NCBI RefSeq assembly: GCF_004745575.1
Contig: NZ_RPEM01000007.1
Coordinates: forward strand, 1 to 64,000
DNA: 64,000 bases
Origin: Pseudotabrizicola sediminis
GTDB taxonomy: Bacteria; Pseudomonadota; Alphaproteobacteria; Rhodobacterales; Rhodobacteraceae
Direction of reading: 5' to 3'
The notes beneath the pieces were generated by a model that had not been told where the DNA came from, ran no database searches, and was given only the letters and a program-made list of their open reading frames with translations. This document shows, piece after piece, positions 15,851 through 44,786 of the stretch. The translations under genes and the position numbers were made by a program. Position 1 is the first letter of the stretch, and the number at the start of each line of letters is the position of its first letter.

Positions 15851-15990
15851 AGTCACGTCAATCCTGAAGCCGGGGGGCACATTGGCGCAGATCACGCCAT
15901 CTTGCAATTGCCAGAGCGCAGGTTGGGCGTGCTAAGATCACCGCGATCCGTGCGGGCTATTGACTGGCTTGACCGTACTGATAGCAACAT

Positions 15991-16006
15991 CTGACCATCC
16001 GGTCAA
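15991..16006. promoter_or_regulatory. RutR-type operator, locus 1
   Basis: CTGACCATCCGGTCAA is an imperfect dyad, TGACC-N4-GGTCA, close to the E. coli RutR consensus TTGACCA-N2-TGGTCAA. It lies between the RutR-like gene and the aminotransferase. It sits just downstream of a possible promoter, TTGACT (15960-15965) with TAGCAA (15982-15987), so binding would block transcription. Confidence 0.75.
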
Positions 16007-16053
16007 AACCCATCCGCGCGCCGCAAGGCCGCCCCAACAGGAACCCCGACACC

Positions 16054-17379
16054 ATGGCGCTGGACCGCAAAGCCCCCAATGACCTGAACGCCTTCTGGAT
16101 GCCCTTCACCGCCAACCGCCAGTTCAAGAAGAACCCGCGGATGTTTGTGGCTGCCAAGGACATGCACTATACCACCAGCGATGGCCGTCAGGTGCTGGAT
16201 GGCACGGCGGGCCTGTGGTGCTGCAACGCCGGGCACTGCCGGCCCAAGATCACCGAAGCCATCCAGAAGCAGGCGGCAGAACTGGATTATGCGCCCGCCT
16301 TCCAGATGGGCCATCCGGTGGCGTTCGAACTGGCCAACCGGATTGTGGAGATTGCCCCTGCGGGCATCGAGCATGTGTTCTACACCAACTCCGGCTCGGA
16401 AAGCGTTGAAACGGCGCTGAAACTGGCCATCGCCTACCACCGCGCCAAGGGTCAGGCCACCCGCACCCGGCTGATCGGGCGCGAAAGGGGCTATCATGGG
16501 GTCAATTTCGGCGGCATCTCGGTGGGCGGCATCGTCAACAACCGTCGCCATTTTGGCAGCCTTCTCAACGGGGTGGACCATCTTCCTCATACCCACCTGC
16601 CCGATGAGAACCGTTGGTCCCGTGGCCAGCCAGAGCATGGCGCGTGGCTGGCCGATGATCTGGAAAAACTGGTGGCGCTGCATGGGGCCGAAACCATCGC
16701 CGCGGTGATTGTCGAGCCCGTCGCCGGGTCCACCGGTGTGATCCTGCCGCCCAAGGGCTACCTTGAAAAGCTGCGCGCGATCACCAAAAAGCATGGCATT
16801 TTGCTGATTTTCGACGAGGTGATTACCGGGTTTGGCCGCCTTGGCGCACCCTTTGCGTCACAGTATTTCGACGTGCTGCCTGACATGATGACCACCGCCA
16901 AGGGCCTGACCAATGGCGTCATTCCCATGGGCGCAGTGCTGACCACAGCCGATGTGCACGATGCCTTCATGGACGGGCCCGAGCATATGATCGAGCTTTT
17001 CCACGGCTATACCTATTCAGGCAACCCCATCGCCTCCGCCGCCGGAATCGCCACGCTGGAGACTTATAAAGAAGAGGCGCTGTTCGACCGCGCCGCCGAA
17101 ATTGCGCCCTATTGGGAGGATGCGCTGCATTCCCTGCGCGACTCACGCCATGTCATCGATGTGCGCAACATGGGTCTGATCGGCGCGGTAGAGCTGGACC
17201 CGATTGCCGGAGAGCCTACAAAACGGGCGTTCAGCGCATTTCTTGCCGCCTATGACAAGAATATCCTGATCCGCACCACGGGTGATATCATCGCCATGTC
17301 GCCGCCCCTGATGATCAGCAAGTCGCAGATCGACACGCTGATCGGCACTTTGGCCGATGTGCTCAGGGCGCTGGACTGA
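16054..17379 (+). CDS. Omega-amino acid:pyruvate aminotransferase (beta-alanine transaminase)
   Basis: This class III PLP-dependent aminotransferase of 441 residues shows the PLP Lys283 (TTAKGLTNG), the preceding IFDEVITGFGRLG, and TNSGSESVETAL. The N-terminal FWMPFTANRQFKKNPR and GLWCCNAGH are typical of beta-alanine--pyruvate transaminases. The enzyme would convert beta-alanine and pyruvate to malonate semialdehyde and alanine. A RutR-type operator and a RutR-like regulator precede it, tying it to pyrimidine catabolism; the dihydropyrimidinase and amidohydrolase lie about 29 kb away. Taurine or other omega-amino acids are alternative substrates. Confidence 0.9.
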   Translation: MALDRKAPNDLNAFWMPFTANRQFKKNPRMFVAAKDMHYTTSDGRQVLDGTAGLWCCNAGHCRPKITEAIQKQAAELDYAPAFQMGHPVAFELANRIVEIAPAGIEHVFYTNSGSESVETALKLAIAYHRAKGQATRTRLIGRERGYHGVNFGGISVGGIVNNRRHFGSLLNGVDHLPHTHLPDENRWSRGQPEHGAWLADDLEKLVALHGAETIAAVIVEPVAGSTGVILPPKGYLEKLRAITKKHGILLIFDEVITGFGRLGAPFASQYFDVLPDMMTTAKGLTNGVIPMGAVLTTADVHDAFMDGPEHMIELFHGYTYSGNPIASAAGIATLETYKEEALFDRAAEIAPYWEDALHSLRDSRHVIDVRNMGLIGAVELDPIAGEPTKRAFSAFLAAYDKNILIRTTGDIIAMSPPLMISKSQIDTLIGTLADVLRALD

Positions 17380-17398
17380 GCGGTTCAGCACAAGCGAC

Positions 17399-17424
17399 GC
17401 CGGGGCGCGCGACGCCGCCCCGGC
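17399..17424. terminator. Hairpin between convergent genes
   Basis: GCCGGGGCG (17399-17407) pairs with CGCCCCGGC (17416-17424) around an 8-base loop. It separates the convergent aminotransferase and GntR genes, as a bidirectional terminator would. There is no strong T-run. Confidence 0.5.
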
Positions 17425-17431
17425 ACCCTGC

Positions 17432-18139
17432 TCAAATATCCAGCGCCGGTGCGCCTTCGAAAAACGCCTCGTTCTCGCCCCTGATCCGGCGCACCTGCTC
17501 TTTGATGCGTGACAGGTGCACATGCATCGCCGCAATGGCCGCATCCGCGTTGCGCATGCGCAAGGCCTCCATCACCTTCAGATGATCACCAAAAGCGTCC
17601 TGTGACGCGAAGGACAGCGACAGGAAACGCACCCTGTCCATATGCGCCTTGTTCTCGCGGATGATGTCCCAGGCAAAGCCATGGCCACTGCGTTCGCAAA
17701 GTTCGCGGTGAAACAGGTCATCCAGCGCATGAAAGCCCATTGCATCATGCGCCTCTACCGCGTCGCGCTGCTGGTCGATCACCCGGTCCAGCGCGGCAAA
17801 GTCACCCTCCCCCAGCCGTTCGCAGGCCATGCGCACGGTCTGGGCTTCGATGGCCGAGCGGATGAACCGCGCCTGCATCACCGCCGCCTCGGAAATCGCC
17901 GATACCACTGTGGCGCGCTGCGGGCGGATGGTCAGAAAACCAAGCGTTGAAAGCCGGTAGAATGCATCGCGCACCGGCTGGCGCGACACGCCCATGATGC
18001 GCGCCACATCCACCTCTGACACCTTGGTGCCGGGCGGCAGATCAAGTGACAGAATCTGCCGGTGCAGTTCTTCAAATACCGCATCGGTCACGGAAGGCCG
18101 CTGCACCGGCTCTGACAGTTTCAGCAGCGTGCTTTCCAT
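17432..18139 (-). CDS. GntR-family (FadR/FCD) repressor of the uronate operon
   Basis: The protein of about 235 residues has an N-terminal winged helix (LHRQILSLDLPPGTKVSEVDVARIMGVSRQPVRDAFYRLSTLGFLTIRP) and an FCD effector domain with metal-type residues in HALDDLFHREL and DHLKVMEAL. GGAGG precedes the ATG at 18139, so that start is chosen over ATG at 18166. It is divergent from uxaC, with a strong promoter overlapped by a dyad between them. This strongly suggests it represses uronate catabolism and is released by a uronate or fructuronate/tagaturonate. Confidence 0.9.
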   Translation of the reverse strand: MESTLLKLSEPVQRPSVTDAVFEELHRQILSLDLPPGTKVSEVDVARIMGVSRQPVRDAFYRLSTLGFLTIRPQRATVVSAISEAAVMQARFIRSAIEAQTVRMACERLGEGDFAALDRVIDQQRDAVEAHDAMGFHALDDLFHRELCERSGHGFAWDIIRENKAHMDRVRFLSLSFASQDAFGDHLKVMEALRMRNADAAIAAMHVHLSRIKEQVRRIRGENEAFFEGAPALDI

Positions 18140-18150
18140 GGTTGCCTCCG

Positions 18151-18180
18151 TTGACAGGTTTCGCATACTAGCATATTAGT
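18151..18180 (+). promoter_or_regulatory. Promoter with overlapping GntR-type operator before uxaC
   Basis: TTGACA (18151-18156) and TATTAG (18174-18179) are separated by exactly 17 bp, a near-consensus housekeeping promoter. The dyad ACTA-GCATAT-TAGT (18167-18180) overlaps the spacer and -10 box. A repressor bound there would exclude RNA polymerase. The predicted start point is about 50 bp before the uxaC GTG. Confidence 0.75.
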
Positions 18181-18238
18181 TTGCAGGTGCGTTGGAAAGA
18201 CCTTTCGCCATGAACGCACTTCGGGAGGGAAACACTAC

Positions 18239-19645
18239 GTGGCATTGCTGGATAAAGACCGTCTTTTCCCCATCGACTCTGGCGCGCGCGGCCTTGCCCG
18301 GGCGCTTTATGACACGGTTTGCGATCTGCCGATCATCAGCCCGCATGGCCATACCGACCCGCGCTGGTATGCCACCGACGACGCCTTTCCCGACCCTGCC
18401 CAACTGCTTGTAACCCCCGATCACTACGTCTTCCGCATGCTGTGTTCGCAAGGCATCGCGCTGTCCGATCTGGGGGTGCCCCGCGCCGATGGCGGCCCCA
18501 CGCAAACCGATGGTCGCAAGATCTGGCAGCTGTTTGCACAGAATTACCACCTGTTCCGGGGCACGCCGTCGCGGATGTGGCTGGACCACGCGTTCGAGAC
18601 GGTGTTCGGCTTTGACACGCCCCTGTCGGCATCAACGGCTGACGACTATTATGACCGTATCGACGCCGCCCTTGCCACGCCGGATTTCCGCCCGCGTGCC
18701 CTGTATGATCGGTTCAAGATCGAGGTGATTTCCACCACCGATGGCGCGCTGGATGATCTGGGCTGGCACCGACAGATCCGCGACTCGGGCTGGCAGGGCC
18801 GCGTGATCCCCGCCTACCGGCCCGACGCGGTGGTCGACCCCGAGTTCGACGGGTTTGCGAAAAACGTGGCGCAACTGGGCGAAATCACGGGTGAAAACAC
18901 CGCCACATGGGCCGGCTACCTTGCCGCCCACCGCGCCCGCCGGGCGTATTTCAAATCCTACGGCTGCACCTCTTCCGACCATGGCCACGCCACCGCACGC
19001 ACGATGGACCTGCCGCAGGATCAGGCCGCGCTGCTGTTTGAACGCGCGTTGCGGGGGGAGTGCACGGCGGAAGAGGCGGATGCCTTCCGCGGCCAGATGC
19101 TGACCGAAATGGCGCGGATGAGCCTTGATGACGGGTTGGTGCTGCAAATCCACCCCGGCAGCCGCCGCAACCATTCGGACCCGATGCTGGCAATGTTCGG
19201 CCGCGACAAGGGCTTTGATATTCCCGGGCGCACCGACTACGTCGCCGCCCTGCGCCCGCTGCTGAACGCAGTCGGGATGGACCCAGCGCTTTCGGTCATT
19301 GTCTTCACGCTGGACGAAACGGCTTACGCCCGCGAACTGGCCCCACTGGCCGGGGTCTATCCGGCGCTGAAACTTGGCCCTGCCTGGTGGTTCCACGACA
19401 GCCCCGAAGGCATGCGCCGGTTCCGCGAGATGATCACCGAAACCGCCGGGTTCTACAATACCGTGGGTTTCAACGACGACACCCGCGCCTATCTGTCGAT
19501 CCCCGCGCGCCACGATGTGGCCCGCCGTGTGGATTGTGCCTTTCTTGCCACGCTGGTTTGCACCGGCAGGCTGGCGGAAGGCGATGCATACGAGGTCGCG
19601 CACGACCTTGCATACCGGCTTGCAAAGCAGGCCTACCGGCTGTGA
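18239..19645 (+). CDS. uxaC: Glucuronate/galacturonate isomerase
   Basis: The 468-residue product begins near [16 protein letters not shown], with the metal-binding HGHTDP of UxaC, and contains SSDHGHA and [12 protein letters not shown]. UxaC converts D-glucuronate to D-fructuronate and D-galacturonate to D-tagaturonate in the cytoplasm. It starts with GTG at 18239 after a GGGAGGGAAAC ribosome site. It is the first gene of the operon uxaC-dctP-dctQ-dctM-kdgF-kduI-kduD-uxuB. The presence of uxuB points to glucuronate as the main route. Confidence 0.96.
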
Positions 19646-19670
19646 AGCCACTCAACGGGAGGAGACTACA

Positions 19671-20654
19671 ATGAAAAAGTTCAACACCATGGCCGCTGCC
19701 CTGCTGGCATCGGTTGCCTTTGCCGGGGCCGCCTACGCCGAATGCGAAGTGACCCTGCGATCATCAGACACCCACCCCGCCGGCTACCCCACCGTGGCCG
19801 CCGTCGAGCATATGGGCGCACTGCTCAAAGAGCGCAGCGCGGGCCGGATCTGCGTCGAAGTGTTCCACTCTGCCCAGTTGGGCGAGGAAAAGGACACCAT
19901 CGAACAAACCAAGTTCGGTGTCATCGACTTCAACCGCGTCTCGATGGGGCCGTTCAACAACATCATCGAGGAAACCAAGGTTGTCTCGCTGCCCTTCATC
20001 TTCCGCGGCACCGACCACATGCACCGCGTGATGGACGGACCCATCGGCGATGAGATTCTGGCTGCGTTCGAGCCGCATGGTTTTGTCGGTCTGGCCTATT
20101 TCGACGGCGGATCGCGGTCTTTCTACAACAAGCAAAAGCCGATCACGTCCGTGGATGACCTGAAGGGCATGAAGATCCGCGTCATGCAGTCTGATGTGTT
20201 CGTCGACATGATGAGCGCCCTGGGGGCCAACGCGACCCCGATGCCCTATGGCGAGGTCTATTCCGGCATCCAGACCGGCGTGATCGACGGGGCGGAAAAC
20301 AACTGGCCGTCGTTCGAGTCGTCGGGACACTATGAGGTTGCCGGCTACTACACCCTGAACGAGCACCTGATCGTGCCAGAGGTTCTGGTGATGTCGAAAG
20401 CCAGCTACGACAAACTGAGCCCTGAAGATCAGGCACTGGTGGTACAGGCCGCGAAAGACTCGATCCCGGTTAACCGCGAGCTTTGGGCCGCGCGTGAAAA
20501 AGAGTCGGAAGACAAGGTGCGTGCCGCCGGTGTGGAAGTGATCTCGGACATCGACAAGACCCCGTTCATCGAAGCGATGGTCCCGGTCTATGAAAAGCAC
20601 GCAGGCACGCCAAAGCTGCAGGATCTGGTCACCCGCATCCAAGCGACCGAGTAA
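19671..20654 (+). CDS. TRAP transporter solute-binding protein, DctP family
   Basis: A signal peptide ([23 protein letters not shown]) precedes a periplasmic DctP domain of about 300 residues with [21 protein letters not shown] and [47 protein letters not shown], the family signature. This signature includes the Arg that clamps the ligand carboxylate. Operon context predicts a uronate or unsaturated oligouronide ligand. GGGAGGAG lies upstream of the ATG at 19671. Confidence 0.95.
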
Positions 20655-20668
20655 GGCAAGCGGCGGGA

Positions 20669-20719
20669 CCGGGGGTTTCACACCCCCGGACCCCCGTGGG
20701 ATATTTGAGAACAGATGAA
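20669..20719 (+). repeat. GC hairpin plus GGGATATTT element (copy 1)
   Basis: CCGGGGGT (20669-20676) and ACCCCCGG (20682-20689) form a hairpin. It is followed by CCCCC, then GGGATATTT and CAGATGAA ending at 20719. A 22-nt stretch (20698-20719) is identical to 51327-51348. The element lies in the dctP-dctQ gap and supplies the ATG annotated here for dctQ. Related copies lie at 32461, 46101 and 51303. Confidence 0.65.
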
Positions 20720-21275
20720 TGACCGCAGCGCGCGGCAGGGGGGCTTGATGCAGCCGGGTTTGTTACGTCTGGCCGTCTGGCTGGGTTATGTTGCCAAGGG
20801 CGCGCTGTGGGCGGCCGGTGCCGGGTTGGTGGCGATGACCGCCATCATCGGCGCGCAGGTGTTTTTCCGCTATCTGCTGAACGACTCGATCATCTGGAGC
20901 GAGCCTGCGGCGGTGATCCTGATGGGCTGGTTCATCTTTCTGGGCGCCGCAGTCGGCATCCGCGAGGGCTATCACCTGTCCTTCGACATTCTGCTCTATC
21001 TGGTGTCGCACCGGGTGAAGATGGTGCTGTTTTCCCTGTCGGATATCGTGGTGACCGCCTTTGGCATTGGCATGGTCTGGTTCGGCTGGCAGCTGATGTC
21101 TTCGGCCTATGGCATCACCCTGCCCTCGCTGGGCATCACCGGCGCGGTGGATTTCATGCCGCTGGTGGCGGGCGGCGTGTTGATGGTGATCTTCTCGCTG
21201 GAACGGCTAGCGCGGCGGGCGGCGGGCCTGCCGACGGCACGGTTTGGCGAAACCGAGCTGGAAGAGGTGGCGTGA
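20715..21275 (+). CDS. TRAP transporter small permease, DctQ family
   Basis: The product of up to 186 residues has four transmembrane helices, with the family core FFRYLLNDSIIWSEPAAVILMGWFIFLGAAVGIREGYHL. The start at 20715 lies inside an intergenic repeat. The in-frame ATG at 20748 has a GGGGGG stretch just before it and gives a more usual N-terminus (MQPGLLRLAVW), so the true protein may be 11 residues shorter. The stop overlaps the dctM start. Confidence 0.93.
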   Translation: MNDRSARQGGLMQPGLLRLAVWLGYVAKGALWAAGAGLVAMTAIIGAQVFFRYLLNDSIIWSEPAAVILMGWFIFLGAAVGIREGYHLSFDILLYLVSHRVKMVLFSLSDIVVTAFGIGMVWFGWQLMSSAYGITLPSLGITGAVDFMPLVAGGVLMVIFSLERLARRAAGLPTARFGETELEEVA

Positions 21276-22555
21276 TGGAGCTTTGGGTTCTTTTCGGCAC
21301 CTTCGTGGTGCTGCTGGCGATCGGTACTCCGGTGGCCTTCTGTCTGGGCGTGTCCAGCTTTGCCACCGTCATCTATATGGGCCTGCCGCCGGTGGTGGTG
21401 TTCCAGCGGCTGAATTCGGGCGTGTCGGTCTTTGCGCTGATGGCGATTCCCTTCTTCATATTCGCCGGTGAAATCATGGTGCGCGGCGACATTGCCAGGC
21501 GGCTGATTGCCGTGGCGGGGGCGGCTGTCGGGCACTTCCGGGGTGGATTGGGGCAGGTCAACATCGCCTCATCGGTGCTGTTTGGCGGCATTTCCGGCTC
21601 GGCTGCGGCGGATGCCTCGGCCATCGGCGGGCTGATGGTGCCGCAGATGAAGGAGCGCGGCTATGATGTTGACTATGCGGTGAATATCACCGTGGTGTCT
21701 TCGATCATCGCGTTGATGCTGCCGCCCAGCCACAACATGATCATCTATTCGATCTCGGCGGGCGGGCGGCTGTCGATTGCCGATCTGTTCACCGCAGGGA
21801 TCATTCCGGGCCTGCTGCTGGCGTTGAGCCTTGCCGCCGCTGCCTGGTATGTGGCTCGCAAGAAAGGCTATCCGACCGAGGCGTTTCCGGGCTGGTCTAT
21901 GCTGGGGCTCTTGCTGATCAACGCCATTCCGGGGCTTTTGCTGATTGTGATCATCTTTGGCGGCGTGCGCTCAGGTGTGTTCACGGCGTCGGAATCGTCG
22001 TGTATCGCCGCGATCTACGCGCTTGGGGTCACCACATTGGCTTATCGTACCATGGGGTGGAATGACTTTGTGGGCGCGGTCAAGGCGGCGGTGCGCACCA
22101 CAGCCATGGTCTTGCTGGTGATCGGCTGTGCGGCCTCGTTCGGCTGGTTGCTGGCGTACCTGAAGGTGCCAAGCGCGATGATCGCGCTGATGCAGAGCGT
22201 TACCGAAAACCCGATCCTGATCCTTTTGCTGATCAACGTCATCCTGCTGGTGCTGGGCACCTTCATGGACATGAGCCCGCTGATCGTGATCACCACCCCG
22301 ATCTTTCTGCCCGTTGCCGTCGCCTTCGGCATCGACCCAGTGCATTTCGGGGTGATCCTGGTGCTGAACCTTGGCATCGGGCTGTGCACCCCGCCGGTGG
22401 GCGCGGTGCTCTTCGTGGGCTGTGCTGTCGGCAAGATTTCCGTCTGGCAGGCCGTGCGCACGATCTGGCCGTTCTACGGCGCGGCCTTCGCCACGCTGAT
22501 GCTTGTCACCTATATCCCGGCGCTGTCCCTGTGGCTGCCTGCCCTGTTCCGTTGA
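21275..22555 (+). CDS. TRAP transporter large permease, DctM family
   Basis: This polytopic protein of 426 residues has about twelve helices and family motifs GGISGSAAADASAIGGLMVPQMKERGY and LGTFMDMSPLIVITTPIFLPVAVAFGIDPVHFGVILVLNLGIGLCTPPVGA. It forms the Na+-coupled membrane component with DctQ. The start ATG at 21275 overlaps the dctQ stop (TGATG). Confidence 0.95.
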   Translation: MELWVLFGTFVVLLAIGTPVAFCLGVSSFATVIYMGLPPVVVFQRLNSGVSVFALMAIPFFIFAGEIMVRGDIARRLIAVAGAAVGHFRGGLGQVNIASSVLFGGISGSAAADASAIGGLMVPQMKERGYDVDYAVNITVVSSIIALMLPPSHNMIIYSISAGGRLSIADLFTAGIIPGLLLALSLAAAAWYVARKKGYPTEAFPGWSMLGLLLINAIPGLLLIVIIFGGVRSGVFTASESSCIAAIYALGVTTLAYRTMGWNDFVGAVKAAVRTTAMVLLVIGCAASFGWLLAYLKVPSAMIALMQSVTENPILILLLINVILLVLGTFMDMSPLIVITTPIFLPVAVAFGIDPVHFGVILVLNLGIGLCTPPVGAVLFVGCAVGKISVWQAVRTIWPFYGAAFATLMLVTYIPALSLWLPALFR

Positions 22556-22562
22556 GGCCTGC

Positions 22563-22871
22563 ATGATCTATCCCATTGTCGAAACAGGCGAAAACGTGAC
22601 CCGGCAGGTGCTGGCAGACAGCGCGGAGCTGATGACCGTGGCGTTCCGCTTTGCCGCCGCAGGGGCACTGGGCGCGCTGCACCGCCACCCCCATGTGCAA
22701 TCGACCTTTGTGCAATCGGGACGCTTTCGGTTCACCGTTGCCGACCGCGACTTCGAGGTCGGCCCCGGCGATGCCTTTGTCATCCCCTCCAACGCTGTTC
22801 ATGGCTGCGTCTGCCTTGAACCCGGCACGCTGATCGACGGGTTTACCCCCCGCCGTGACGATTTTCTCTGA
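22563..22871 (+). CDS. kdgF: KdgF-like cupin protein
   Basis: The 102-residue single-domain cupin has metal-type residues in HRHPHVQ (His40, His42, Gln46) and His80 in IPSNAVHGC. KdgF enzymes open 4,5-unsaturated uronates, released by pectin or alginate lyases, to the linear keto form (DKI). Its place directly before kduI and kduD supports this role. Many cupins look alike, so the name rests partly on context. Confidence 0.8.
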   Translation: MIYPIVETGENVTRQVLADSAELMTVAFRFAAAGALGALHRHPHVQSTFVQSGRFRFTVADRDFEVGPGDAFVIPSNAVHGCVCLEPGTLIDGFTPRRDDFL

Positions 22872-22883
22872 AAGGACCATCTC

Positions 22884-23708
22884 ATGCTGTACGTTGAAAC
22901 CCGGCAGGCGATTTCCGCCAATGAAGCCAAGGGAATGGATACGACCGCCCTGCGCGCGAATTTCCACGGCGAGGGGTTGTTTCAGGATGGGCAGATCCGC
23001 CTTCTGTACACCCACTACGACCGGATGATCGTGGGCGGGGCAGTTCCGGCGGGCGGCGATCTTGTGCTGGACCATGTCAGGGAATGCGGCACCGCCAGCA
23101 TTCTGGACCGGCGCGAGATGGGCATTATCAACATCGGCGGCGATGGCACGGTTGCGGCGGGGGGGGAGACCTATGCGCTGTCCAAGGGCGATGTGCTCTA
23201 TCTGCCGATGGGGGCGGGCCCGGTGACGTTTTCGGGTCAGGGCCGGTTCTACATAAACTCTTGCCCGGCGCATCAGGCCTATCCGGCGCGGCTGATCAAG
23301 CTGGAAGACGCCAAAAAGCTGACGCTGGGGGCTGCGGAAACCGTCAACCACCGCACCATCAACCAGTTCATCCACCCCGAGGTGATGACCAGTTGCCAGC
23401 TGGTGCTCGGCTATACCCAGTTTCATGGCGGCAGCGTCTGGAACACCATGCCCGCCCACCTGCACGACCGGCGGATGGAGGCGTATCTGTATTTCGATAT
23501 TCCCGAAGGCCAGCGCGTGTTCCACTTCATGGGCGACCCGGCCGAAACCCGGCATCTGGTGATCGCCAATGAAGAGGCCGCGATTTCGCCGCCATGGTCG
23601 ATCCATTGTGGCGCAGGCACCGCCAGCTATACCTTCATCTGGGCGATGGCGGGCGACAATGTCGATTACCGGGATGTGGAAGTGGTGAAGATGGAGGATT
23701 TGCGGTGA
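22884..23708 (+). CDS. kduI: 5-dehydro-4-deoxy-D-glucuronate isomerase
   Basis: The 274-residue product matches KduI along its length, for example LLYTHYDRMIVGGAVP, REMGIINIGGDG, NQFIHPEVMTSCQLVLGYTQ, TMPAHLHDRRMEAYLYFD and PPWSIHCGAGTASYTFIWAM. The cupin metal ligands lie in HLHDRRMEAY and the later WSIHCG. It converts 5-keto-4-deoxyuronate to 2,5-diketo-3-deoxygluconate, the substrate of KduD encoded next. AAAGGA precedes the ATG. Confidence 0.96.
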   Translation: MLYVETRQAISANEAKGMDTTALRANFHGEGLFQDGQIRLLYTHYDRMIVGGAVPAGGDLVLDHVRECGTASILDRREMGIINIGGDGTVAAGGETYALSKGDVLYLPMGAGPVTFSGQGRFYINSCPAHQAYPARLIKLEDAKKLTLGAAETVNHRTINQFIHPEVMTSCQLVLGYTQFHGGSVWNTMPAHLHDRRMEAYLYFDIPEGQRVFHFMGDPAETRHLVIANEEAAISPPWSIHCGAGTASYTFIWAMAGDNVDYRDVEVVKMEDLR

Positions 23709-24430
23709 CCCCGTTTTCGCTGTCAGGCCAGACCGCACTGATCACGGGGGCCAATACCGGCATCGGTCAGGCCATTGCCGCCGCCATGGCGCGCGCCGGC
23801 GCGCATGTGATTGCGGCGGGGCGGTCGTCTTGTGCCGAGACGGTCGCTATGACCGGGGGAGAGGAACTGGCGCTTGATTTTGCCGATCCGATGGCTGCGC
23901 GTGACGTATTCTCGGACCGCCCCATCGACATTCTGGTGAACAACGCAGGCATCATCCGCCGCGCGGACTCGGTCGACTTTACTGAAGAAGACTGGGATGC
24001 GGTGATGGATGTGAACCTGAAGGCGGTGTTCTTCACCTGTCAGGCCTTTGGCAAGGCGGCCCTAGCCCGGGGGGCGGGCGCGAAGATCGTCAACATCGCG
24101 TCGCTGCTGTCGTTTCAGGGCGGCATCCGGGTGCCGTCCTATACTGCGTCGAAACATGGCGTGGCGGGCATCACCAAATTGCTGGCCAATGAATGGGCGG
24201 CAAAGGGCATCAACGTGAATGCCATCGCACCGGGCTATATCGAGACCAACAACACGCAAGCCCTGCGCGCCGACCCCGACCGCAACAAGGCGATCCTCGA
24301 CCGCATTCCTGCCGGTCGCTGGGGCCGTGCCGATGATATCGGCGAGGCGGCGGTGTTCTTGTCCTCTCCCGCTGCCGCCTATATCCACGGCGCAGTTCTG
24401 AATGTTGATGGAGGCTGGCTTGCCCGCTGA
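23705..24430 (+). CDS. kduD: 2-dehydro-3-deoxy-D-gluconate 5-dehydrogenase (SDR)
   Basis: A classical short-chain dehydrogenase of about 241 residues has TGANTGIG (14-21), NNAG (79-82) and the catalytic Tyr146-x3-Lys150 (YTASK). It starts with GTG at 23705, overlapping the kduI stop (GTGA), so translation is coupled. KduD reduces 2,5-diketo-3-deoxygluconate to KDG with NADH. KDG kinase and aldolase genes are not in the window. Confidence 0.94.
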   Translation: MTPFSLSGQTALITGANTGIGQAIAAAMARAGAHVIAAGRSSCAETVAMTGGEELALDFADPMAARDVFSDRPIDILVNNAGIIRRADSVDFTEEDWDAVMDVNLKAVFFTCQAFGKAALARGAGAKIVNIASLLSFQGGIRVPSYTASKHGVAGITKLLANEWAAKGINVNAIAPGYIETNNTQALRADPDRNKAILDRIPAGRWGRADDIGEAAVFLSSPAAAYIHGAVLNVDGGWLAR

Positions 24431-25832
24431 ACGCCTGACCCGCAGCGCCCCTGCCGTTCCTGTCGGTATCGTCCACCTTGGCCTTGGCGCGTTTTTCCGG
24501 GCCCATGGCGCGGTTTACATCGAAGAGGCGATGTCGGCCTCGGGTGGCGACTGGGGCATTCTGGGCGTGTCGCTGCAATCGGCCACCATGCGCGACCAGC
24601 TGACCCCGCAGGGCGGCACCTATATGGCGTTGGAGCTGGGGCCGGAAGGCGAGACGCTGCGCCATGTGCAATCGGTCCAAGGTGTGCTGGTGGCCCGAGA
24701 GGATGCGCAGGCGGTGCTGGAGGCGATGGCGGATCCGGGCGTGCGCATCGTCAGCCTGACGGTGACGGAAAAGGGCTATTGCCATGAGCCTTCGACCGGT
24801 CGGCTGAACGACCAGCATCCCGATATCGTCCATGATCTGAGCCACCCGCTGCCCGTCTCGGCCCCCGGCTATCTGGTGCGTGCGCTTGCGCTGCGTCTGT
24901 CGCGCGGCCTGCCCCCCTTTACCGTGCTGACCTGCGACAACCTGCCCAACAACGGCCATGTCGTGCGCGGCGTGGTGCTGGATCTGGCGCATGCGATTGA
25001 TCCTGCCCTTGCCGCGTGGATCGAGGCCGAGGGGAAGTTCCCGTCAACCATGGTCGACCGCATCGTTCCCGCGACTAAGCCCGAAGACATCGCTCGGGTG
25101 GAGGCGCTGATCGGCGCGCATGATGCCGCCCCGGTGATGCACGAACCCTTCCGGCAATGGGTGGTCGAGGATGATTTCGTGGGCGGTCTGCGCCCCGATC
25201 TGGGCGCGGCAGGTGTGCAACTGGTGCGCGATGTGACTGAATTCGAGCATATGAAGCTGCGCATGCTCAACGGGACCCATTCGTCGCTGGCCTATCTGGG
25301 CTATCTGTCAGGGCATGAAACCATTGCCGATTGCATGACCGACCCGGTGCTTGACCGGTTCGTGCAACACCTGTGGGCGGCAGAGATCATCCCCGCCCTG
25401 ACCCCGCCCGAAGGCGTCAGCCTGTCCGAATATGCTCAGGCCCTGCGGGCGCGCTATGCCAACCCCGGCATCCGCCACCGCACCTGGCAGATCGCGATGG
25501 ATGGCAGCCAGAAACTGCCCCAGCGCATCCTTGGCACGCTGGAGACCAACTTGGCCGCAAACCGCCCCTGCCCCGGCCTGATGCTCGCTGTCGCCGCCTG
25601 GATGATTTATGTGCGCGGCACCGATCTGGCCGGTCAGCCGATAGAGGTCAAAGATCCGCTTGCCCCACGCCTGCGCGAAGCCGCCACCAGCGCCGATCCG
25701 GTGGGTGCCCTGCTGGCGCTGCGCGAAGTGTTCCCGCAGGATCTGGCGGCCCGGCTGTCCGAACCTCTGCGCAAGGCCTGTTCCGATTTGTCGGCTCTGG
25801 GGGCCAAAGACGCGATGCAAGCCCGGCTGTAA
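24402..25832 (+). CDS. uxuB: Fructuronate reductase (mannitol dehydrogenase family)
   Basis: This long-chain polyol dehydrogenase starts with a Rossmann segment, IVHLGLGAFFRAHGAVY. It carries TVTEKGY, TCDNLPNNGH, FPSTMVDRIVP and KLRMLNGTHSSLAYLGYL, where the Lys serves in catalysis in this family. UxuB reduces D-fructuronate to D-mannonate. The frame opens inside kduD. Starts at ATG 24402, ATG 24408 or TTG 24420 are all possible, and the TTG lies five bases after GGAGG, which makes it credible. UxuA (mannonate dehydratase) is absent from the window. Confidence 0.9.
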   Translation: MLMEAGLPAERLTRSAPAVPVGIVHLGLGAFFRAHGAVYIEEAMSASGGDWGILGVSLQSATMRDQLTPQGGTYMALELGPEGETLRHVQSVQGVLVAREDAQAVLEAMADPGVRIVSLTVTEKGYCHEPSTGRLNDQHPDIVHDLSHPLPVSAPGYLVRALALRLSRGLPPFTVLTCDNLPNNGHVVRGVVLDLAHAIDPALAAWIEAEGKFPSTMVDRIVPATKPEDIARVEALIGAHDAAPVMHEPFRQWVVEDDFVGGLRPDLGAAGVQLVRDVTEFEHMKLRMLNGTHSSLAYLGYLSGHETIADCMTDPVLDRFVQHLWAAEIIPALTPPEGVSLSEYAQALRARYANPGIRHRTWQIAMDGSQKLPQRILGTLETNLAANRPCPGLMLAVAAWMIYVRGTDLAGQPIEVKDPLAPRLREAATSADPVGALLALREVFPQDLAARLSEPLRKACSDLSALGAKDAMQARL

Positions 25833-25839
25833 CTGTCAG

Positions 25840-25860
25840 GCGGGCGCCAGCCGCGCCCGC
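25840..25860 (+). terminator. Hairpin after uxuB
   Basis: GCGGGCGC (25840-25847) pairs with GCGCCCGC (25853-25860) around a 5-base loop, 8 bp after the uxuB stop. A short TTGCCCCCTTT follows. It probably ends the uronate operon. Confidence 0.45.
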
Positions 25861-25894
25861 TTGCCCCCTTTCTGACCGCTTCAGAAATGATGGC

Positions 25895-25927
25895 TTTTCG
25901 TCAGATTGACCAGTCATTTTTCGTCAG
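25895..25927. promoter_or_regulatory. Direct repeat TTTTCGTCAG before the inositol operon
   Basis: TTTTCGTCAG occurs at 25895-25904 and 25918-25927, 23 bp apart, with TTGACC between them at 25906-25911 as a possible -35 element. The 185-bp gap between uxuB and the SDR gene is the only sizeable gap in this block, so the operon promoter must lie here. The repeats are candidate operator half-sites. Confidence 0.45.
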
Positions 25928-26017
25928 GAATGACGCATAGCACCGCCTGACCCGTTGACCGGGCCGCCGGTCTGGCACAAGGTCCGCGCAACCCGCAGCA
26001 GGGAGGCCGCGCGTGAC

Positions 26018-26785
26018 ATGACCCCACATAGCAACACCACAGCGCTGATCTTTGGCGGCACGCAGGGCCTTGGTCTTGCCATTGCCGAGCGTCTGCGCGC
26101 CGAGGGCTGCACCCGTATGGTGCTGGCCGCGCGTGACCCTGACAAGGGGGCTGCGGCAGCGGCCCAACTGGGCGCAACGTTCCTGCCGTGCGATCTGGCC
26201 GATGCCGCATCGGTCATCGCCTGCGTTGATCAGGCGGCAGCCCTGATGGGCTCGGTCAACGCGCTGTGCCTGTCGGCCGCGTCAACCGACCGGGGTTCGA
26301 TCTTGGACACGGCGCCGGAAGCCTTTGACCGCATGTTCGCGATCAACACCAAGGGGCCGTTCTTTGCCATCCAGCGCGTGGCGCAACTGGCAAAAGCCGC
26401 ACAGCACCCGGCCAGCATCGTTACCATCCTGTCGATGTCGGCCCATGTCGGGCAATCATTCCTGACGCCCTATTCTGCCTCCAAGGCCGCGCTGTCGAAC
26501 ATCACCAAAAACACCGCCAATGCCCTGCGCCACGACCGCATTCGCGCCAATGGCATCAATTGCGGCTGGATGGACACGCCCGGCGAAGACGCAATCCAAC
26601 GCAGCCACCACGGGTCCACCGATGGCTGGCTGGAACGGGCCGAGGCGGCGCAACCCTTTGGCATGCTGGTAAAACCCGCCCATGTGGCCGGACTTGCCGC
26701 CTATATGCTGGGCCCGCAATCCGGTGTGATGACGGGCTCCATCGTTGATTTTGATCAGAACGTCTCTGGCGCATCGCCCGAGTAG
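26018..26785 (+). CDS. SDR-family oxidoreductase, first gene of the inositol operon
   Basis: The product of about 255 residues has a nucleotide-binding loop GGTQGLGLAIAE, an unusual CLSAA in place of NNAG, a catalytic Ser in ILSMSAH and YSASK. GGGAGG precedes the ATG at 26018. It starts the operon ahead of iolG by 11 bp. Its substrate may be an inositol isomer or keto-inositol, but sequence alone does not show this. Confidence 0.85.
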   Translation: MTPHSNTTALIFGGTQGLGLAIAERLRAEGCTRMVLAARDPDKGAAAAAQLGATFLPCDLADAASVIACVDQAAALMGSVNALCLSAASTDRGSILDTAPEAFDRMFAINTKGPFFAIQRVAQLAKAAQHPASIVTILSMSAHVGQSFLTPYSASKAALSNITKNTANALRHDRIRANGINCGWMDTPGEDAIQRSHHGSTDGWLERAEAAQPFGMLVKPAHVAGLAAYMLGPQSGVMTGSIVDFDQNVSGASPE

Positions 26786-34184: not shown

Positions 34185-34208
34185 GAGGGTACGGACGTCG
34201 CCAGAGGC

Positions 34209-36617: not shown

Positions 36618-36696
36618 CTTTGGTATCCTTATCTCGGCAGGAAGGTCACGGCCCCGTCCATCGGCAGCATCCCGACCTTCCCCTCTCTGGCTCCTC

Positions 36697-36727
36697 TATC
36701 TGGGGAGTCTGCGGGGGGGTGTCAACC
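36697..36727 (-). promoter_or_regulatory. Candidate RpoH (sigma-32) promoter of lon
   Basis: On the minus strand GGTTGACA (36727-36720) is followed after 14 bp by CCCCAGATA (36705-36697). This resembles the sigma-32 pattern CTTGAAA-N13-17-CCCCATNTA. Location upstream of lon, a classical heat-shock gene, supports it. Confidence 0.6.
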
Positions 36728-36858
36728 AGGGCAGCCAAGTGGCCGGGAAAGGCCAGCCGTTTGGTGTGATGATGCGCCTTGGCGCTTGCGCGGGCAAGGG
36801 ACAATCCCGGACAAATCTGCGCAGTCGGGCGGCCTGTCCGGCCCGGTGCCCTGTCCGG

Positions 36859-37449: not shown

Positions 37450-37606
37450 GCCACTTGTCCGTATTTGCAGGGTGCTGCGCCGTCACATTAGCAGCGCGCT
37501 GCAAAAAATGCGCGTGGAAGTTTACAGTTTGCTCAATTTTTGCATGCCGTCGTATGCGGATGCCACAGGTCCGGCCCCGTGCCCCGCCTTGCCGATGTCA
37601 GGACGG

Positions 37607-38890
<1,284 letters not shown>

Positions 38891-38941
38891 TTAAGTGATC
38901 TGGACCGCCCGGATGACCGGGCCTCTTTGGGGGATTTCACA

Positions 38942-39529: not shown

Positions 39530-39580
39530 CCTCAACGTCTCTGACATCTTCTCCAGCTGTCGCATCCAAGGATTGTCCCG

Positions 39581-42214
39581 ATGCCCATGACCCTTTCTTC
39601 CCTGTTCCAACTGCGGTCCATCTTCCTCAAGGCGACCGTAATCACCGCGCTCACTGTGGCTGTCGTCGTTGCAAGCTCGATCTTTGGCAGCAACGTCGAC
39701 AAAAAGGCGATGCTGCATGCCGCATTGCGGGAAATGGCGGGAATGGTCACCAATATGTCCGGGCACAGTGCTGGCGGGGCCTTGCGGTTCAACAAGCCCG
39801 AAGCGGCAAACGTGATCGAACAGGAATTGTTCGATCTGACCGGCGAAGATCTGACAGAGATTTTGACGTTGCGCCTAGATGGCACTGTGTTTTCCCAGGC
39901 CCGCCGTCCGGGTGCAACAGCCACGGATGATGCGCCTGTGCGGCTTGGCAATGACCTGCTGGCCAAAGTTACCGCTTGGGTTGCGCAAAACCGTCAACCA
40001 GGCCACGACGAAGAACTGCTGTACAGCGAAGACGGCCTGATGGCGGCCCATCCGGTCTATTTCGGTGCCGAATCGCAGATCGTTGGCGTGATCGTCACGC
40101 GCTGGTCCGATGAACGGATCTCGGCAGAGGTTGCGGCGACAACTCGGCAGAGCCTGGTGACGGGCGCGGGTATTTTTGCGGTGATGCTGTTTGTGGCTGC
40201 CCTTCTGTTCCGCCGGTTCATCTCAAGCCCGCTGCGCAACCTGAATGAGGCGGTCAGCAAAGTGGCCGCCGGAGATTATGCAGTTGAAGTGCCGGGCCGA
40301 ACCGCGCACGATGAGATCGGCGACATCGCCCGGGCGCTCGAAGGCTTTCGCTCCGATCTCGCCGCCTCGCTGGAGGTGACACGCGTCGGCATGTTCAAGG
40401 GCTCCGGCTTTGAAGGGGCCTCAGCCGCGCTCACGATTACCGACACGGATTTCCGCATCCTGTTTGCCAACGCCGCAGCGCAAACCCTGATGACCAGTCA
40501 TTTCTCGGCGGGTCAGGGCGCGGCCACGCCGCTGACCGGACGCCCCGCCACCAGCCTTGATCCGGCCCTCGCCAACCTGTCCGGCCGCGGCGGCGCAGGT
40601 CTGCCGCAAGCCATCGGCTTCTCACGCGGAAGCGATATGTTTGCCGTCTCAATGGCCGCCATCCGCGACACTGACGGCGTGCTTACCGGCTATGTTCTTG
40701 AATGGCGCATGACCACGCAAGACCGCCGCAATGCCGCTGTCCTCTCGGCGATCGACGCGGGGCAACTGCGCGCTGAATTGTCAAAGTCCGGCCAGATCGA
40801 ATCTGCGAATGACCGCTTTGCCGCCTTGCTTGGGCATTCTGCCGCAACGATCGCCGGACGCGACTGCCGCAGCCAGCTGACACTCGAAGAGCCTGCGTCC
40901 GGCGATCTGTGGGGGCGGCTCAGATCGGGCGATCCGGTCGACGGGCTGATCCGTCTGAGCTTGCCAAACGGTGACGCTGCCTTGCTTGATGCGCGCATCA
41001 CCCCGGTCAAAGACGACAAGGATGCGGTGCAATCCTATCTTCTGCTCGCAACCGATGTCACCCGGCAGCAAGCCGATCAGCGCGAGGCCGAGGCACGTCG
41101 GCGCGACATGGAGGCGGCACAGAGCAAAGTCGTCGATTCGCTTCGCGCAGCACTGGCGCAACTGTCGAACGGCGACCTGACCGCCACCCTGGGCGAGACG
41201 TTCGACACCCGATATGAAGGTCTGCGCTCCGATTTCAACGAAGCGACAGAGCGGTTGCGGGCGGCGATGTCGGATGTCGTTGACAGCTCGGCCGCCATCC
41301 GCGGCGAAGTGGGCGACATCAGCAGCGCCGCCGACAATCTCAGCCGCCGCACCGAACAACAGGCCGCCACGCTGGAGCAGACCTCTGCCGCGCTTGACCA
41401 GATGACAACCTCGGTCAAATCCACCGCCGAAGTCGCCCGCAACGCCAATTCACGGGTGGAAGAGGCCAAGCAGAATGCCGAAACCTCGGGCCGGGTTGTG
41501 CGCGAGGCTGTGTCGGCCATGGGCGAAATCGAACAAAGCTCGTCCAAGATTTCTCGCATCACCTCTGTGATCGACGAAATCGCCTTCCAGACCAACCTGC
41601 TGGCGCTGAACGCCGGGGTCGAGGCCGCCCGCGCGGGCGAGGCCGGGCGTGGCTTTGCCGTCGTCGCCTCGGAAGTGCGCGATCTGGCGCAGCGCTCGTC
41701 CGAGGCCGCGCGCGAAATCGCCGGGCTGATCACCGCCTCTTCCGATCAGGTCAAACGCGGCGTCAGCCTTGTGGCAGAGGCCGGCCGCAGCCTGACCGGC
41801 ATCCAATCCGCGGTAGGGGAGGTGCACAGCCTGGTGTCAGAGATTGCAAGTTCGGCCAAGGAACAATCCAACGGCATCACCGAGTTGAACACCGCCGTCA
41901 AACATCTGGACCAGGTGACCCAGCAAAATGCCGCAATGTTCGAGGAAACCTCTGCGGCATCGCAATCGCTGAACCGGGCAGCCGGTGCACTGGCCGAAAC
42001 CACCGCGCGCTTTACCCTGAACAGCGGCACCCGGCGCGACGCGTCCTCTGGTCCGATGGCCAGCCGAACCGCGCAGTCTTGGGGCCCGCCCAAAGCAGAC
42101 AGCAAGCCTGCCCCAGGCACCTTTCAGTCTTCACGCACGCCCCCCGCCCGGTCCTCATCCCGCGCCGCACAGACCGCAACCGCCGCAGACCGCGACAGCT
42201 GGGAAGATTTCTGA
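39581..42214 (+). CDS. Methyl-accepting chemotaxis protein
   Basis: This transmembrane chemoreceptor of 877 residues has a first helix near residues 14-38, a periplasmic sensor and a second helix near 190-215. HAMP follows ([27 protein letters not shown]), then one or two PAS-like domains (about 275-510) and the MCP signalling domain with hairpin tip [52 protein letters not shown]. The C-terminus DSWEDF fits the CheR/CheB tether pattern xWxxF, at the end of a Pro/Ser-rich linker. It therefore should recruit adaptation enzymes. Its ligand is unknown. Confidence 0.96.
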
Positions 42215-42243
42215 TCCCGAACGAAATCTGATCCCAAATAAAA

Positions 42244-42272
42244 ATGCCGGATCCGACCATCGGATCCGGCAT
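42244..42272 (-). terminator. Terminator of efp
   Basis: ATGCCGGATCCGA (42244-42256) pairs with TCGGATCCGGCAT (42260-42272) around CCA. On the minus strand a TTTTTATTT tract follows the stem. It lies downstream of efp and between it and the convergent chemoreceptor. Confidence 0.85.
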
Positions 42273-42329
42273 CTTGCATCCTGTCAGCGCAAAGACAGCT
42301 ACGCCGGGATCAGACCGCGCAAAACAGGG

Positions 42330-42893
42330 TCAGTCCTTGGCACGTCCCACATAAGAATAATCGTCGGTGTTGATCTCGATCCGCGTGCCGGTACCAATAT
42401 GCGGCGGCACCATCACCCGCAGCCCGTTCGAGCAGATCGCCGGCTTGTAGGACGATGACGCCGTCTGCCCCTTCACCACCGGTTCGGTTTCTGTAATCTC
42501 GACGATCACGCGCTGGGGCAGTTCAATGGCAATCGCGACGCCTTCATAGGTCCGAAGATAGACCTTGATGCCTTCGTTCAGAAACACCTTGTCATCGCCC
42601 ACCACATCCGGCGTCACTGCGATCTGCTCATAAGTGGTAGGCTCCATGAAGTGATAGCCTTCGCCATCTTCATACAGAAAATCATATTCCCGCTCGTCCA
42701 CCGTGGCCTTTTCGACCATCTCGGTGGTGCGCCAGCGCTCGGCCACCTTCACCCCGTCCGAAATCCGGCGCATATCGACACTGGTGGTGGGCGTGCCCTT
42801 GCCGGGATGGAAGTTTTCAGCTTTCAGAACGGCATAGAGCTTGCCATCCATTTCAACAACATTGCCCTTGCGCAGCGAGGATGCGATGACTTT
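42330..42893 (-). CDS. efp: Elongation factor P
   Basis: The 187-residue three-domain protein starts [19 protein letters not shown] with GTG at 42893. Lys33 sits in [15 protein letters not shown], equivalent to the modified Lys34 of E. coli. The C-terminus [19 protein letters not shown] is canonical. EF-P relieves ribosome stalling at polyproline. It is divergent from epmA, which beta-lysylates that residue. Confidence 0.97.
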
Positions 42894-43021
42894 CACGGTC
42901 AGGTTTTCCTTGTGGTTTGAAAGGCCGAAGGATAGCCCCGGCACCGATTGTCTGCGCGCCTACCGCATCTGACGGCGAATTTCAACGCAGGCCGCGCAAA
43001 AAGACCGCAGGAAGGGTTCGC

Positions 43022-44062
43022 ATGTCCGGTTCAGACACCTGGTGGTCCGCCACACGCCACGCCGACCGCCGCCCGCTGCTGCTGGCGCGCAACCGAATTC
43101 AGGCGCGGATCCGCAACCATCTGGCGGAGGACGGTTTTACCGAGGTCGACCCCGCCGCGCTGCAAACCAGCCCCGGCAATGAAACGCATCTGCACGCCTT
43201 TGGCACTGACGCCATCGGCAACGATGGCCAATCACGGCGCATGTATCTGCACACCAGTCCCGAATTCGCGATGAAAAAGCTGCTCGCGGCGGGCGAGACG
43301 CAGATCCATGCCTTTGCCCATGTCTGGCGCAACCGCGAACGTGGCGCGCGGCACAGCCCGGAGTTCACCATGCTGGAATGGTACCGGGTCGGACAGGATT
43401 ACAGCACCTTGATGCAGGATTGCGCGGCCTTTTTGCGGCTCGCGGCACAGGCGGCGGGTGCCAACCACTTGCGCTTTCGCGAGGCGACCTGCGACCCCAT
43501 GCTTGAACCGGAACGGGTATCGGTGGCCGATGCGATGCGACGCCACGCCTCGGTCGACCTGCTGGCCACGCTGGCCCATGATGGCAGTGCCGACCGCGAA
43601 TCCCTTGCCCGTCAGGCAGCAGCCATCCACCTGCGCGTTGCCCCCGATGACACCTGGTCCGACATCTTCAGCCGCATCCTGTCCGACCGGGTCGAGCCGC
43701 ATCTGGGCCATGGCCGGCCCACCCTGCTCGACCGCTATCCGGTGGTCGAGGCCGCGCTTGCCCGCCCCTGCGCCGATGACCCGCGCGAGGCAGAACGGTT
43801 CGAATTGTATGCCTGCGGGGTCGAACTCGCCAATGGCTTTGGCGAGCTGACCGACGCGACCGAACAACGCCGCCGCTTTGCCGCCGAGATGGAGGAAAAG
43901 GCGCGGATCTATGGCGAGCGTTATCCGCTGGACGAAGATTTCCTTGCGGCCCTCGCCCATATGCCGCCTGCCAGCGGCTGCGCCCTGGGGTTTGACCGGC
44001 TGGTGATGCTGGCGACCGGAGCCCCACGCATCGACGATGTGCTTTGGGTGCCAGTGGGTTAG
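43022..44062 (+). CDS. epmA: EF-P beta-lysine ligase
   Basis: The 346-residue protein is a class II lysyl-tRNA synthetase catalytic domain without the anticodon-binding domain. Motif 2 is HVWRNRERGARHSPEFTMLEWYR, and motif 3 is ASGCALGFDRLVMLATGAPRIDDVLWVP. These mark EpmA/GenX (PoxA), which attaches beta-lysine to EF-P. CAGGAAGG precedes the ATG at 43022. The stop is 7 bp from the convergent regulator stop. Confidence 0.95.
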   Translation: MSGSDTWWSATRHADRRPLLLARNRIQARIRNHLAEDGFTEVDPAALQTSPGNETHLHAFGTDAIGNDGQSRRMYLHTSPEFAMKKLLAAGETQIHAFAHVWRNRERGARHSPEFTMLEWYRVGQDYSTLMQDCAAFLRLAAQAAGANHLRFREATCDPMLEPERVSVADAMRRHASVDLLATLAHDGSADRESLARQAAAIHLRVAPDDTWSDIFSRILSDRVEPHLGHGRPTLLDRYPVVEAALARPCADDPREAERFELYACGVELANGFGELTDATEQRRRFAAEMEEKARIYGERYPLDEDFLAALAHMPPASGCALGFDRLVMLATGAPRIDDVLWVPVG

Positions 44063-44069
44063 CACCGCC

Positions 44070-44717
44070 TCAGATCACGCCAATCCCGCGCAGGATGACC
44101 GTCTTTGCCGTCTCGGTCGCGTCACGCCATTGCGCATCACTCAGCGGCTCGCCGCCGTTCAGCGTCTCGATCTGATGACCGAAATCAGCATAATGCTGCG
44201 TCATCGCCCAGAGCATGTACAATAGATGGCGCGGATCGACCGGGGCCATCTTGCCCTCATCCACCCAGGCCTGGATCACCGCCATCCGCCCCGCCGTCCA
44301 GTCGCGCAAGGTCGTTTCCAGATAATCCTGTATCACCGGCGCGCCATGCATCACCTCGGATGCCCAGACCTTTGACCCGAACGGATGACGGCGCGAGATC
44401 GCCATCTTGGCCTCGATATAGCCGCCGATCCCTTCGACCGGGCCGGGGGCATCGTCAAAAGTGTCGGCGGCATGCAACCAGATTTCAAAGATGTTGCGCA
44501 CCACCTGCCGGTAGAGCGCCTCCTTGGTGGGAAAGTAGTAATGCAGATTGGCCTTGGGCAGCCCCGCCATATCGGCGATCAACTGCATGGTCGCCCCGCC
44601 ATAGCCAGCCTCGGCAAACACCTTTTCTGCCGCATCCAAAATCACACGCTCATTTTCGCGCCGGATTTCGGTGCGTCTGCCCTTCTGGATGCGTGAAACT
44701 TGTGCGTTCTGTGTCAT
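44070..44717 (-). CDS. rutR: TetR-family regulator, RutR-like (copy 2)
   Basis: The 215-residue product has a TetR helix-turn-helix (ILDAAEKVFAEAGYGGATMQLIADMAGLPKANLHYYFPTKEALYRQV) and the RutR-type ligand domain with ASEVMHGAPVIQDYL and LYMLWAMTQHYADFGHQI. The same positions are shared with copy 1 at 15245. It is divergent from the amidohydrolase and dihydropyrimidinase genes, with two RutR-type dyads between. It is therefore the likely uracil-responsive regulator of pyrimidine degradation. Confidence 0.9.
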   Translation of the reverse strand: MTQNAQVSRIQKGRRTEIRRENERVILDAAEKVFAEAGYGGATMQLIADMAGLPKANLHYYFPTKEALYRQVVRNIFEIWLHAADTFDDAPGPVEGIGGYIEAKMAISRRHPFGSKVWASEVMHGAPVIQDYLETTLRDWTAGRMAVIQAWVDEGKMAPVDPRHLLYMLWAMTQHYADFGHQIETLNGGEPLSDAQWRDATETAKTVILRGIGVI

Positions 44718-44736
44718 CAGCCTGTTGGAAATTATG

Positions 44737-44752
44737 TTGACCGGATGGTCAG
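44737..44752. promoter_or_regulatory. RutR-type operator, locus 2 site A
   Basis: TTGACCGGATGGTCAG has the arms TTGACC/GGTCAG around 4 bases and sits 20 bp before the RutR-like start on the minus strand. It matches the operator at 15991 and the known RutR consensus. Confidence 0.75.
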
Positions 44753-44770
44753 GTTGTGGTGCGCTTGGTC

Positions 44771-44786
44771 CTGACCATACGGTCAG
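44771..44786. promoter_or_regulatory. RutR-type operator, locus 2 site B
   Basis: CTGACCATACGGTCAG is a dyad with six-base perfect arms. It lies 58 bp before the amidohydrolase start and 34 bp from site A (start to start), so the two sites could control the two divergent promoters. Confidence 0.75.

Follow-up and report, generated by a model that had tools for sequence, protein, structure and literature searches.

Two RutR-like regulators of different clades predicted to govern one scattered pyrimidine-degradation regulon in Pseudotabrizicola sediminis

The window, that is, the whole 64,000-nucleotide stretch analyzed here (positions 1 to 64,000 of contig NZ_RPEM01000007.1 from Pseudotabrizicola sediminis, Rhodobacteraceae), contains two divergent loci in which a TetR-family regulator gene resembling rutR faces genes for pyrimidine degradation (Table 1). 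At the first, 203 bp separate rutR1 from an aminotransferase gene; at the second, 126 bp separate rutR2 from genes for a hydrolase, a dihydropyrimidinase and an ATP-binding cassette (ABC) importer. These two gaps hold the only three mismatch-free copies of YTGACC-N4-GGTCAR in the window, recovered exactly where a preliminary description of the sequence had placed them, and the copy at 44737, read on the opposite strand, is the identical 16-mer to that at 15991. Each is a 16-bp palindrome of the TTGACC-N4-GGTCAA kind near likely target genes, as expected of RutR. Together with the comparisons below, these features point to two RutR-type repressors that would govern a single reductive pyrimidine-degradation regulon.

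Profile and structure matches place the locus 1 enzyme among the omega-amino acid and beta-alanine:pyruvate aminotransferases, while profile, Pfam and PDB matches agree on the enzymes and importer of locus 2, and the assignments fit the earlier proposal that one pathway is divided between the two loci. The hydrolase matched 8c46, named N-carbamoyl-beta-alanine amidohydrolase, at 714 bits, and further close structures are named N-carbamoyl-L-amino-acid hydrolase; it probably starts at ATG 44844 and not at 44790, judging by a GGGAGA ahead of the former and by the same start in relatives. Dihydropyrimidine dehydrogenase was not found among the window open reading frames (ORFs) scanned, and PreA/PreT were located on contig C3, so that PreTA, dihydropyrimidinase and a beta-ureidopropionase-type hydrolase, the steps of the reductive pathway, are all in the genome. 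On the opposite strand, a gene for a DUF3422 protein (PF11902, 524 bits; 51408-52691) adjoins the importer genes.

Table 1. Features of the two loci, with window coordinates
Feature	Position	Strand	Evidence or remark
RutR1, RutR-like TetR regulator	15248..15850	-	ATG at 15850; best PDB match E. coli RutR, 187 bits
15991 dyad CTGACCATCCGGTCAA	15991..16006	no strand	predicted operator; 48 bp before aminotransferase ATG, 140 bp from rutR1
omega-Aminotransferase, AptA type (beta-alanine:pyruvate aminotransferase kin)	16054..17379	+	NF052567, 756 bits (cut-off 500); 3a8u, 4b98
RutR2, second RutR-like TetR regulator	44073..44717	-	ATG at 44717; best PDB match E. coli RutR, 163 bits
Site B, rutR2-proximal dyad TTGACCGGATGGTCAG	44737..44752	no strand	exact pattern match
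Site A, hydrolase-proximal dyad CTGACCATACGGTCAG	44771..44786	no strand	exact pattern match; 34 bp from site B
N-carbamoyl-beta-alanine amidohydrolase-type hydrolase	44844..46094	+	NF006769 and TIGR01879 above cut-off; 8apz 734 bits, 8aq0 726 bits
Dihydropyrimidinase	46141..47595	+	TIGR02033, 591 bits (cut-off 393); 3dc8, 860 bits
ABC importer ATPase	47532..48398	+	PF00005; best NCBIfam match under cut-off; first start codon used, true start probably later
ABC importer permease 1	48443..49360	+	weak SaoP/SsuC-type matches; conserved in relatives' cluster
ABC importer permease 2	49357..50202	+	PF00528
ABC importer substrate-binding protein, NMT1/THI5-like	50247..51233	+	PF09084, 122 bits

Both regulators are RutR-type TetR proteins, as had been proposed, with structures of E. 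coli RutR (PDB 3loc, 4jyk, 4x1e, 6z1b) as their closest solved matches and TIGR03613 and NF011584 as their best families (220.6 and 202.0 bits for RutR1, 202.3 and 179.1 for RutR2). They share 39% identity. In a tree of 71 rows, with bootstrap not fully settled and four long branches, RutR1 grouped with proteins from E. coli, Sinorhizobium and Shinella, separate (split 97/88) from RutR2, which was placed with proteins from Azospirillum, Tistrella, Caballeronia, Thalassospira, Halomonas, Cupriavidus and Pseudoroseomonas. Recognition helices, too, set the two apart consistently, as do many other residues: positions 51-58 read SKPNLLYY in 124 of 142 RutR1 rows, against PKANLHYY in 100 of 104 RutR2 rows (rows not deduplicated). 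The earlier suggestion of two paralogous regulators with the same apparent DNA code holds in that two RutR-type proteins and one common type of operator are present, the predicted codes overlapping without being identical; a recent duplication of one RutR was ruled out by the tree, in which the two belong to different clades and are not each other's nearest kin. The simplest reading is that RutR2 was gained from another lineage, and an old duplication followed by losses is a possible alternative. Annotated relatives of RutR2 outside the family adjoin preA and other reductive-pathway genes, or a cluster of GTP cyclohydrolase II, URC4 and upp. One such case is Pseudoroseomonas (L251, 3552-7579), where the RutR2-clade regulator faces these three genes and is preceded by the dyad CTGACCGATTGGTCAA; from this context, the clade may have a role in a further uracil pathway as well.

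Across the 4.04-Mb genome, TGACCN4GGTCA occurred 20 times, versus five for a reversed-pattern control, and YTGACCN4GGTCAR occurred 11 times. With ORFs picked by a length and GC3 rule, 15 of the 20 lay within ORFs and five were intergenic, the latter including all three window sites. At this genomic density, about 0.001 copies would be expected by chance in the 203-bp gap, and two copies in the 126-bp gap at a probability of the order of 1e-7. Of the other 17 exact dyads, 15 were inside ORFs, and the one at C78:80383, flanked by the ends of a Usp gene and of an ORF of 267 codons that converges on it, was dropped.

We searched 80 genomes of the family using RutR2 as the query, and 70 gave a match. 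A RutR1-type protein was present in 69 and none was found at the search threshold in 10; G052 has solely a distant protein of 35% identity (L154), which was excluded from the RutR1-only counts, with the genome kept among the RutR-bearing deoC rows described below. RutR2-type proteins were in 13 of the 80, counting the window's genome, always alongside RutR1 (12 with an identity of at least 66%, the thirteenth with 50%). The 56 loci with RutR1 only carry the hydrolase (51), dihydropyrimidinase (49), preA (41) and aminotransferase (13) genes, and two have none of the five tested genes; the stretches are 9-14 kb long, so an absence may mean a position outside the stretch. Usually preT-preA comes first, followed by rutR1, which faces (aminotransferase-)hydrolase-dihydropyrimidinase-ABC. 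Because it adjoins pathway genes in most of these relatives, RutR1 is, on the evidence of gene neighborhood, the family's ordinary pyrimidine regulator, and the same neighborhoods led us to reject RutR1 as a dedicated beta-alanine regulator.

In most genomes that have it, rutR2 is paired divergently with the hydrolase gene. The two regulator genes lie within about 1.1 kb of each other in eight of the 13 two-regulator genomes, and the window represents a split form, with 28 kb from one regulator to the other and preTA on contig C3. That intervening DNA includes TRAP transporter, KduI, KduD and mannitol-dehydrogenase-type genes (18239-26785) for uronate or sugar-acid use. In the two gaps of relatives that were read, an HbpS-like (PF03928) gene sits between rutR2 and rutR1 in tandem arrangement (L178, 6658-7122), and a similar ORF occupies the gap in L169. 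In the GTDB sample, from which we took the best 80 of 493 RutR2 loci, all closely related, the closest named loci came from Pseudotabrizicola and other Rhodobacteraceae, and RutR1 was within the fetched stretch in 55. Genomes of the genus recur across our sets, and protein counts were therefore made on distinct sequences.

The arrangement of operators is conserved along with the genes. Among these best 80 of 493 loci, the gap between the hydrolase gene and rutR2 contained two dyads in 75, one in four and three in one, at one mismatch or less, and the spacing in the 75 was 34 bp in 66, 33 bp in eight and 32 bp in one. Shared descent contributes to this conservation, since the space between sites A and B is itself partly conserved and each site has its own typical center. 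A dyad lies next to rutR1, at one mismatch or less, in 44 of the 56 RutR1-only loci, and five of these 44 dyads equal a RutR2 16-mer, including the window's 15991 sequence beside rutR1 in L119. Having 16-mers in common indicates that the predicted DNA codes of RutR1 and RutR2 overlap; they are not identical, with T at position 3 or A at position 14 in nine of 44 RutR1-only versus none of 152 RutR2 operators (uncorrected for relatedness). Within the genus, 14 loci have rutR1 facing the aminotransferase gene, and 11 of them carry the 15991 dyad at one mismatch or less (nine exact); it was found in neither of two loci where that gene is not beside rutR1 (G083 and G085), from which we predict that it is the operator of the aminotransferase gene and perhaps also of rutR1.

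The same two congeners bear on how the promoter of locus 2 is read. G083 and G085 have RutR1, with no RutR2 at the search threshold or beside the hydrolase operon, which both retain next to the same epmA-like gene. Both have a perfect site B and a decayed site A, the end of which is altered in the same way in each. Any continuing use of site B there would have to be by RutR1, as RutR2 is gone, and site A looks private to RutR2. Cross-regulation, which the preliminary description had raised, is therefore plausible, given the common 16-mers and the survival of site B after the loss of RutR2.

The predicted control of the pathway extends beyond the window, to preTA on C3 and perhaps to deoC on C45. 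No canonical dyad within one mismatch is present near preT in this genome. A matrix scan, in which only sufficiently long upstream stretches were kept, gave instead a variant element, TTTACC-N2-TTGATAAA, located about 70 bp upstream in most loci and found at one mismatch or less in 74 of 77 RutR-linked loci. In P. sediminis, the near-invariant element TTTACCGTTTGATAAA lies 74 bp before preT at C3:29962-29977 (L014, 7963-7978) and occurs once in the genome at one mismatch or less. A dyad at C45:152838 (L026, 3339-3354) lies some 165-190 bp ahead of a deoC-aldehyde dehydrogenase gene pair, and all 16 genus orthologs retain it at one mismatch or less, 14 of them exactly; the second, 68% deoC of G081 (L268), which is without the dyad, was not counted among the 16. 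Among 71 further family rows, from which G011 and the second copy of G033 were left out, the dyad was in 17 of 61 that bear RutR (two expected) and in none of eight that lack it, a contrast with p = 0.19. Hence deoC may join the regulon in some genera.

It could be argued that the preTA and deoC elements answer to other regulators, which would leave the two window loci as the entire regulon. Speaking for this are the imperfect dyad of the preTA element, the RutR-like dyads that occur separately near an intact element in L098/L099, L107 and L144 (directly before it in the last two), and the deoC contrast, which is not significant alone. Against it, in L123 and L129 the very element has become a canonical or almost canonical dyad, and in L277 and L278 (G083 and G085) its left arm is TTGACC; it is missing from three and changed in its ACC in one of the four RutR-less relatives with preT (p = 0.0009), and the deoC dyads are well beyond chance. 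We consider separate regulators doubtful, if worth keeping in mind, and a variant RutR operator the likeliest reading of the preTA element. That the window dyads are no operators at all, being chance matches or pieces of hairpins or terminators, is very improbable: most exact copies in the genome do fall within ORFs, and a 6-4-6 dyad is able to fold into a short hairpin, but the window sites sit between divergent gene starts, with fixed spacing and with arms conserved across many genera.

The preliminary description had also offered a division of labor by two ligands. In such a scheme, RutR1 would sense beta-alanine or a late intermediate and control the aminotransferase, and RutR2 would sense uracil and control the early steps. 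This division would suit the window, where the two regulators face different parts of the pathway, as well as the consistent differences in recognition helices and elsewhere. According to PMC10891134, E. coli RutR contacts uracil through stacking by W77 and W167, through Q171, through Y97 via water and through Q179 from the other monomer. All five residues are kept in both window proteins and, among distinct sequences covering them, in 56 of 56 RutR1-only, 83 of 83 other RutR1 and 91 of 91 RutR2 proteins; two RutR1 rows are incomplete, and Q179 is missing from one of two distant extra proteins. Because both regulators keep these contacts, two different ligands are not suggested, and most RutR1-only relatives have the whole pathway opposite or next to rutR1; we regard the two-ligand scheme as improbable and predict that both proteins sense uracil or thymine. 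Equal pockets and common 16-mers would also suit plain redundancy, with RutR2 a second copy of equal sites and ligand retained for dose or by drift. This seems unlikely in view of the different clades with their diagnostic helices, the base preferences at positions 3 and 14 of the operators, and the decay of site A once RutR2 was lost.

We favor, at a probability of roughly two in three, a regulon of reductive pyrimidine degradation that is scattered over the chromosome and governed by two RutR-type repressors, with a split of sites between them and release by uracil or thymine. RutR1 would be the resident regulator of the family, with three predicted targets: site B, the aminotransferase operator at 15991 and, on contig C3, the variant preTA operator. 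RutR2, of the other clade and the divergent partner of the hydrolase-dihydropyrimidinase-importer operon, would recognize both site A and site B, which lie some three helical turns from each other, and hence its own promoter. With uracil (or thymine) in their conserved pockets, both repressors are predicted to leave the DNA, and the operons would as a result be induced together. The genes and sites, their conservation, the pocket residues, the two clades and the decay of site A without that of site B are seen in the sequences; from them we infer repression, uracil as the inducer, and the assignment of proteins to sites. A more detailed version, which we put forward tentatively, has RutR2 gained horizontally beside the resident, with site B read by both, site A by the newcomer alone, and a relaxed TTTACC/TTTATC preTA operator by the resident alone; uracil would then free the operons in graded order, one ligand acting through two overlapping codes, and loss of the newcomer would entail loss of its private site.

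Several observations weigh against the two-repressor regulon. Neither protein reaches the curated cut-offs of TIGR03613 (368 bits) or NF011584 (230 bits), for which reason we call both RutR-like and do not file them as RutR equivalogs. The rutR2 promoters of the 13 two-regulator genomes in the family are less uniform than the double operator would imply, with two dyads in eight, one in four and none in one. Among 85 distinct RutR1 sequences drawn from the genus and RutR2-bearing loci, 26 are accompanied by an upstream dyad at one mismatch or less and 59 are not, so that control of rutR1 at its own promoter is not general; where the regulator genes stand in tandem, transcription of rutR1 may come from the rutR2 promoter. 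The loss of RutR2 counts as one event, since G083 and G085 are sister congeners with RutR1 proteins 97% identical, and site B could persist there because the loss is recent. As the preTA element differs from the RutR dyad and varies hardly at all in its right arm, it could be a site for another protein.

E. coli has one RutR, which regulates the rut operon (rutA-G) and carAB. The window regulators share its uracil-contact residues and differ from it in that their predicted targets are reductive-pathway genes and that two RutRs from two clades are present; no rut gene lies beside either window regulator, with no genome-wide search for rutA having been made. RutR-like genes adjoining a Zn-dependent hydrolase, dihydropyrimidinase or preA gene also occur in Sinorhizobium, Caballeronia, Thalassospira and Azospirillum, with one per stretch, whereas the window's relatives combine one of each clade. 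In tetR/tetA of Tn10, a divergent promoter of a TetR-family gene likewise carries a pair of operators, about 30 bp from each other, but the regulator and ligand are unrelated and no second regulator is known to share the sites. The 16-bp palindromic form of the operator is shared with E. coli RutR, as given in PMC10891134. In RegPrecise, the RutR regulons of Proteobacteria cover 68 genomes in 13 groups, where RutR regulates pyrimidine catabolism and its motif changes from taxon to taxon, and the portion of that account available to us (PMC5343134) names no second RutR, double operator or preTA variant. Nor was a two-RutR arrangement found in the literature searched, which included the accessible parts of PMC5343134, PMC4344238 and PMC10891134.

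RutR-like control of pyrimidine breakdown is thus mostly of a known kind, and such sensors are well known; as far as the literature searched in its accessible parts can tell, the pairing of two RutR clades, the double operator and the pattern of loss are new. If the reading holds, the family would offer a natural case of a bacterium absorbing an additional regulator whose DNA code nearly equals that of the first, in which one-regulator relatives, two-regulator relatives and congeners that have lost RutR2 can be compared and predictions made for single operators. It would also extend the predicted control of pyrimidine degradation in the Rhodobacteraceae to preTA and, perhaps, to deoC.

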